A stretch of DNA of 18,004 nt from Nitrososphaerales archaeon TH5896 (GTDB taxonomy: Archaea; Thermoproteota; Nitrososphaeria; Nitrososphaerales; Nitrososphaeraceae). The stretch spans positions 1-18,004 of the forward strand of contig JAATVP010000207.1 in the NCBI GenBank assembly GCA_014523625.1. Reading direction: 5' to 3'. The position numbers and the translations under genes are program-made. Positions 1,766 through 2,119 of the stretch are shown here, piece by piece. A model generated the notes under the pieces. The model was not told the DNA's origin. It saw only the letters and a list, made by a program, of their open reading frames with translations, and did no database searches. Numbering within the stretch: the stretch's first letter is position 1; each line of letters begins with the position of its first letter.

Positions 1766-1890
1766 TCTTTCCTTAACCTGTGTTCTTACCGAAATTAGTA
1801 AGAGCAGAGATACGCAGATATTACGCTTCAATATTTACAGCCGTTGCTGGGTGGGGTCGTAGCGAAGCCAGGGATCGCAACGGGCTCCAG

Positions 1891-1923
1891 ATCTTAAATC
1901 CCAACCAACGGAATTGGGCAGAA
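1891..1923 (+). other. tRNA-Trp intron 1, canonical position 37/38
   Basis: This is the insert between G37 (1890) and A38 (1924) of the anticodon loop. It contains a hairpin, CCCAA 1900-1904 with TTGGG 1914-1918, and TCT 1892-1894 can pair with AGA 1920-1922. I could not draw a strict bulge-helix-bulge by eye, so the exact ends could shift by a base (A1923 and A1924 are equivalent). Confidence 0.8.
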
Positions 1924-1944
1924 ACCCGTGGATCAAGGGTTCAA

Positions 1945-1975
1945 TTACTGACACTTGATGGTGTAGGTAGAACAT
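1945..1975 (+). other. tRNA-Trp intron 2, T loop position 58/59
   Basis: The insert follows TTCAA of the T loop. Its own stem pairs 1946-1954 (TACTGACAC) with 1961-1969 (GTGTAGGTA), with one G-A mismatch and one G-U. On the 3' strand this stem runs straight into GAAC 1970-1973, which pairs with GTTC 1939-1942 of the exon. The 5' strand is left with a 3-base bulge, A1943-A1944-T1945. Cutting after the second bulge base gives exactly 58/59. The 3' bulge is looser (about five bases), so this is a relaxed form of the motif cut by the archaeal tRNA splicing endonuclease. Confidence 0.78.
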
Positions 1976-2119
1976 ATCCCTTCGGCCCCATCCCTTCATA
2001 TTGAATTATGGACTCACACAGTTGGCGATCATCCTGAGACCCAAATGCCCTTAGAGTTATGGCTTGGCTAAAGGTTCGATCTGATCCTATAAGTATATGA
2101 CTGTCATATCGTGACTGAG

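Follow-up and report, generated by a model that had tools for sequence, protein, structure and literature searches.

The stretch of DNA analyzed here (the window, 18,004 nucleotides) is contig C157 of a Nitrososphaeraceae MAG (2.74 Mb in 277 contigs, 92% complete). On its forward strand, at 1853-1990, lies a tRNA-Trp(CCA) gene made up of three exons and two introns, one at the canonical position and the other inside the T loop. The window also encodes an adenylosuccinate synthetase (PF00709) that is 96% identical to a protein from a Nitrososphaerales MAG, 86% to one from Dino_bin45 (a Nitrososphaeraceae MAG) and 84% to one from strain TH5895, and the assignment to Nitrososphaeraceae is based on these identities; no mobile-element gene was found among nine tested window ORFs beside the tRNA-Trp gene. 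The parts of the gene and the region upstream of it are as follows:

1816..1830, forward strand: possible promoter region, AGATATTACGCTTCA, common to four loci of the window's own genus (L003, L034, L035 and L036)
1853..1890, forward strand: exon 1, mature positions 1-37; 5' strand of the acceptor stem, D arm, 5' strand of the anticodon stem, and CTCCAG with the anticodon CCA
1891..1923, forward strand: canonical-position intron (37/38), 33 nt, with no box C-like motif; position shared by all 59 complete orthologues of the family
1924..1944, forward strand: exon 2, mature positions 38-58; 3' strand of the anticodon stem, variable region, 5' strand of the T stem, and TTCAA
1939..1942, forward strand: GTTC (53-56), the exon half of the 4-bp central helix of a bulge-helix-bulge (BHB)-like motif; pairs with 1970-1973
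1945..1975, forward strand: T-loop intron (58/59), 31 nt; all 50 distinct family versions fit the plan N-helix-GRAY-AN
1946..1969, forward strand: hairpin of the T-loop intron, arms 1946-1954 and 1961-1969; eight of nine positions pair, by reading, and the arms covary
1970..1973, forward strand: GAAC, the intron strand of the central helix; a GRAY in each of the 50 distinct family introns
1976..1990, forward strand: exon 3, mature positions 59-73; AT, 3' strand of the T stem, 3' strand of the acceptor stem, and A73

Once the introns are removed, the cloverleaf with anticodon CCA is complete: the acceptor stem is formed by 1853-1859 and 1983-1989, the D stem by GCGA and TCGC, the anticodon stem by 1880-1884 and 1925-1929, and the T stem by 1935-1939 and 1978-1982, with A73 at 1990. 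The 74-nt spliced form, whose T loop reads TTCAAAT, is typed by ARAGORN as tRNA-Trp (cca). An earlier, sequence-only reading of this DNA had claimed that every stem of a tRNA-Trp(CCA) is present around 33 extra bases in the anticodon loop and 31 in the T loop; the stems lie where it placed them, and both lengths are correct. It had also described the stem of the T-loop insert as stacked on GTTC/GAAC pairing with AAT as the bulge, and AAT (1943-1945) is indeed what separates GTTC from the intron stem. That stem, described as spanning nine positions, is located properly; pairing holds at eight of them, including one G-T wobble, and 1950 faces 1965 as a G.A mismatch.

A tRNA-Trp covariance model, built on eight mature sequences of the family including the mature form of the window gene itself, assigns the stretch 78.2 bits (E = 7e-19) and locates the extra bases in the anticodon and T loops. 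With its default threshold, ARAGORN does not call the unspliced gene in the window whether or not intron options are set, and the Rfam tRNA family misses it in searches of the window and of the genome. The suspicion that standard finders may miss this gene is thus confirmed for these two tools at this locus, but it does not generalize: the Rfam family detects tRNA-Trp in five of nine other loci tried (two of the three from the window's family), and ARAGORN at a relaxed threshold reports 34 candidates, one of which is a truncated tRNA-Trp at 1852-1957. At a relaxed threshold, Rfam gave only a match to PVT1_7, dismissed as a chance one (20.3 bits, where the cut-off is 80). When the unspliced strand is folded thermodynamically, the result is not significant (z = -1.31; 22 of 200 shuffles fold as well). 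The support for a doubly interrupted gene is comparative, not energetic.

A DNA search over 300 genomes of Nitrososphaerales returned 62 loci from 58 of the 70 Nitrososphaeraceae genomes. Two loci at contig ends (L036 and L146) and one with no 5' match (L145) were left out; the other 59, from 56 genomes, have both ends, and every one carries both introns at the same two positions. The three-exon pattern used for this comparison has fixed exon lengths, so what was found is that none of the 59 loci departs from it; with that qualification, all of them are consistent with the cut at 58/59 proposed by the sequence-only reading, which leaves the T loop TTCAA-N-T. No match better than E = 0.2 was found in the remaining 12 family genomes, of which 11 are 59-87% complete and one is 92% complete; five of the 12 gave one hit each when a looser pattern for the 5' exon was used, one that tRNA-Lys genes match as well. 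The 59 loci collapse into 20 distinct mature tRNA-Trp sequences (T loop TTCAA followed by A, T or C and then T), 45 distinct canonical introns of 26-48 nt and 50 distinct T-loop introns of 23-33 nt. Over 600 sampled family pairs, the mean identity of the mature tRNA is 0.963, and the similarity ratio is 0.711 for canonical introns and 0.574 for T-loop introns, compared with 0.468 for shuffled T-loop introns. In other words, exons are conserved (about 96%) and introns are divergent across the family. Three genomes (G219, G226 and G232) have two tRNA-Trp loci each, with both introns in both copies, and a fourth (G191) has one locus and a fragment; these extra copies probably reflect strain mixture in the bins.

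Conservation extends upstream of the gene. Among the 60 family loci with at least 50 upstream bases, CTTATA occurs 34-51 nt upstream of tRNA-Trp in 52, and four others have TTTATA instead. The four loci of the window's own genus lack CTTATA and have in common the different conserved upstream block listed above. A conserved upstream element fits an expressed tRNA-Trp gene.

That so small a gene holds two inserts, including one in the T loop, and that both ARAGORN and Rfam fail to call it might be taken as signs of a decayed pseudogene, that is, of a tRNA-Trp broken by two insertions while another copy does the work. However, all the stems are intact, and the exons have remained 96% conserved while the inserts diverged. 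The sequence-only reading had itself named a second, ordinary tRNA-Trp as the finding that could turn this locus into a pseudogene, and we found none in the 92%-complete genome or in six single-contig relatives. In each of these seven genomes, the best hit of the covariance model is the interrupted tRNA-Trp; an uninterrupted copy would be expected to score at least as high and hence to stand at the top of the matches listed. Among those matches, 21 further hits from the seven genomes were fetched (L191-L211), and none is another tRNA-Trp: those typed by ARAGORN include Met, Arg, Thr and Phe tRNAs, and L208, which it did not call, has by eye the Arg anticodon CCT. Likewise, the 5'-exon pattern yields one tRNA-Trp and one tRNA-Lys-like match per genome in the three single-contig genomes with matches listed, and none of 30 tRNA loci fetched from the window's own genome by the Rfam search is typed as Trp, a result limited by the roughly 8% of that genome that is missing. 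With UGG codons to be read and no other tRNA-Trp found in the seven genomes searched, the window tRNA-Trp is very probably a working gene from which both introns are removed, and a pseudogene is very improbable.

The T-loop introns provide further insight into how such removal might take place. All 50 distinct versions share one plan, N-helix-GRAY-AN, in which GRAY is GAAC (27), GAAT (13), GGAC (7) or GGAT (3) and in every case can pair, partly by wobble, with exon G53-U54-U55-C56. The first four pairs of the intron stem are formed in 100, 98, 96 and 92% of the distinct introns, each by at least two Watson-Crick types, and pairs 5-7 are weaker (56, 54 and 49%). Taken together, these seven positions are 78% paired, compared with 59.5% when the 3' arms are re-dealt (sd 2, maximum 66, 1000 re-deals), a difference that should not be read as a probability because shared ancestry persists in the re-dealt control; repeating the control with matched cells left the result unchanged. 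The nine-pair stem as a whole is 73% paired, and 33-41% if slid by one to three bases. The T-loop insert has an exon-intron central helix, a 3-nt 5' bulge and an intron helix, as in a relaxed BHB; it is relaxed rather than strict because, if G53 pairs with the intron, the 3' bulge is 5 nt and so exceeds 3 nt.

Of the 37/38 introns, all 45 distinct versions start with ATC or GTC and contain an internal GGC, and no simple central helix is apparent by eye. In 41 of the 45 this element is GGGC, often inside a small hairpin as judged by eye. Pseudoknot-like pairing of this element with exon GCTC (31-34) is conceivable, as is mimicry of exon GGGC. A C-box-like (RUGAUG-like) motif is found in none of the 45 and CTGA in two, so these introns do not look like box C/D guides; among the family's T-loop introns, none has both C and D boxes.

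For comparison outside the family, we used 33 tRNA-Trp loci from three other families (f9, f2 and f10), comprising 29 of the 30 loci read from a pattern scan of the 300 order genomes (matches in 195) and four others; L151 (contig end), L170 (a tRNA-Pro) and L153-L159 (chance matches) were left out. All 33 have a canonical intron of 50-67 nt with a C-box-like motif, resembling in this the guide intron of Haloferax, and CTGA is present in this intron in the 23 loci of f9 and f2 and absent from it in the ten of f10. Intron-guided 2'-O-methylation of tRNA-Trp thus appears to have been lost in the window's family. In the f9 and f2 genes the 5' half is interrupted as well, by an intron that by eye lies near position 28-30. 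The T arm, judged by stem pairing, is uninterrupted in 32 of the 33 loci. The exception is L167 (genome G130, f10), where, by eye, TTCAA is followed by a different T-loop insert of its own, about 34 nt long, a feature that the other nine f10 loci lack. Among the loci read, the T-loop intron is, by sequence, a mark of the window's family, with L167 as one separate case.

Since the T-loop insert forms a hairpin of its own, one might ask whether the mature tRNA retains it and so has an enlarged T arm. We regard this as highly unlikely. In all 59 loci, removal of the insert restores an ordinary T loop of seven bases, TTCAA-N-T; its conserved GRAY can pair with the very bases of that loop, as a splice motif should; and the T arm is uninterrupted in 32 of the 33 tRNA-Trp loci read from other families. 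An assembly or binning artefact, for which one could point to the 277-contig MAG of which the window is a single contig and to the four relatives with more than one copy or a fragment, has next to no probability given that six single-contig genomes, and loci spread over 11 genera, show the same doubly interrupted structure.

T-arm introns in the family are not confined to tRNA-Trp. The initiator tRNA-Met of genome G083 has a T-loop intron at 58/59, as in tRNA-Trp, and a pattern for this tRNA found 14 loci across the 70 family genomes, with nothing matching it in the remaining 56. By eye, five of the 14 have their T-arm intron at 58/59, whereas in nine it interrupts the T stem near 52/53; three of the nine, including the locus of the window's own genome (L270, C33:7993), also have a D-loop intron. 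T-arm intron positions thus vary between relatives in initiator tRNA-Met and are uniform in tRNA-Trp. Other tRNAs of the window's genome are interrupted as well: by eye, D-loop introns are present in Leu(TAA), Gln(TTG), Arg(CCT), Glu(TTC) and Asp(GTC), and Lys(CTT) has an insert in the variable loop.

The sequence-only reading had supposed that this lineage has a splicing endonuclease of broad specificity, and the protein sequences support the idea. Two proteins of the genome have PF01974 and PF02778 domains. The first (L001, 200 aa), the alpha subunit, aligns to the Aeropyrum pernix catalytic subunit 3p1z (E = 3e-45) and keeps the catalytic Tyr, His and Lys as well as a lysine aligned with K44 of the 'Crenarchaea-specific loop'; the second (L002, 215 aa), the beta subunit, lacks the catalytic His. 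In A. pernix, according to passages of PMC6379350, the lysine of this loop is responsible for broad specificity, and passages of PMC4090602 attribute alpha2-beta2 splicing endonucleases to Thaumarchaeota. The genome, then, encodes both subunits of a putative broad-specificity (alpha-beta)2-like splicing endonuclease.

These observations can be combined into a single account, which also agrees with the earlier view that both introns are removed by such an enzyme. The pre-tRNA would offer a splice motif at 37/38 and a BHB-like motif at 58/59; the heteromeric endonuclease, with a catalytic alpha subunit bearing the broad-specificity loop and a structural beta subunit, would cut both sites; and a ligase would join the exons into the 74-nt tRNA-Trp(CCA) with T loop TTCAAAT, releasing the introns. 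At the second site, the highly conserved tRNA sequence GTTC (53-56) would form one strand of the central 4-bp helix, and because the exon supplies this strand, the intron itself need bring only GRAY and a hairpin. We infer transcription, cleavage, ligation, the exact cut sites and intron circles from gene anatomy and comparison, and we hold with high confidence that the locus is a functional Nitrososphaeraceae tRNA-Trp gene processed in this way. A T-loop intron can thus be kept family-wide in what appears to be the sole tRNA-Trp gene, so that tRNA maturation in the family should depend on a broad-specificity splicing endonuclease. On the practical side, tRNA inventories of these genomes made with tools that are not intron-aware can lose tRNA-Trp.

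How this arrangement arose is a matter for a tentative and rather doubtful scenario. The essential, single tRNA-Trp of the family might have swapped intron systems: the canonical intron shrank, its C/D-box signals were lost and the T-loop intron became fixed. Position 58/59 might be a repeated point of insertion, as L167 and some initiator tRNA-Met genes could suggest, because the conserved GTTC gives half of the splice motif. The interruption may then persist by destroying the usual attachment site of integrating elements; two exact-pattern scans for copies of the attachment site in viral contigs gave no hit, which is no evidence either way. Whatever its origin, the family offers a natural series for testing the gain of non-canonical introns, including the shifting positions in initiator tRNA-Met.

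The tRNA-Trp intron of Haloferax volcanii lies at the canonical position. It is 103 nt long and, as described in passages of PMC7714728, serves as a box C/D guide for C34 and U39; the window gene also has a tRNA-Trp intron, but one of 33 nt and without a C-box-like motif. T-arm introns as such are described in passages of PMC4090602 and PMC6379350. In Thermoproteales, the presence of canonical and non-canonical introns in one gene, relaxed motifs and an (alpha-beta)2 endonuclease are shared with our case; an example given in the same passages of PMC4090602 is the Pyrobaculum islandicum tRNA-Pro, with introns at 25/26, 37/38 and 56/57. However, these archaea belong to another phylum and the tRNAs are different ones, and the positions quoted there, which include 56/57 and 59/60 and end in 'etc.', do not include 58/59. 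Caldiarchaeum subterraneum, from a related archaeal lineage, likewise has non-canonical introns: passages of PMC3293823 report introns in the D, V and T arms of its tRNA genes and propose their gain by integration of mobile elements, but it is for Leu, a CUG tRNA and Thr that they mention several introns in one tRNA. Another precedent is the tRNAscan-SE 2.0 work, in which, according to passages of PMC8450103, 107 non-canonical introns were counted in Thaumarchaeota and a covariance model was trained on that phylum. Phylum, BHB motif and multiple introns per gene are shared with the window gene, whereas the text passages of that source do not name the tRNA-Trp of Nitrososphaeraceae, the 58/59 position or family-wide fixation. 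In our literature search on tRNA introns of Nitrososphaera and Thaumarchaeota, which left most subscription journals outside its coverage, no title or abstract among the matches listed treats this gene; the window tRNA-Trp may well be annotated in GtRNAdb. Non-canonical and multiple introns in thaumarchaeal tRNAs are thus already documented, as the passages of PMC8450103 attest. What appears mildly new is the family-wide fixation of the T-loop intron together with the loss of guide signals from the canonical intron, and a further addition to the known introns is the separate T-loop intron in the tRNA-Trp of another family (L167).
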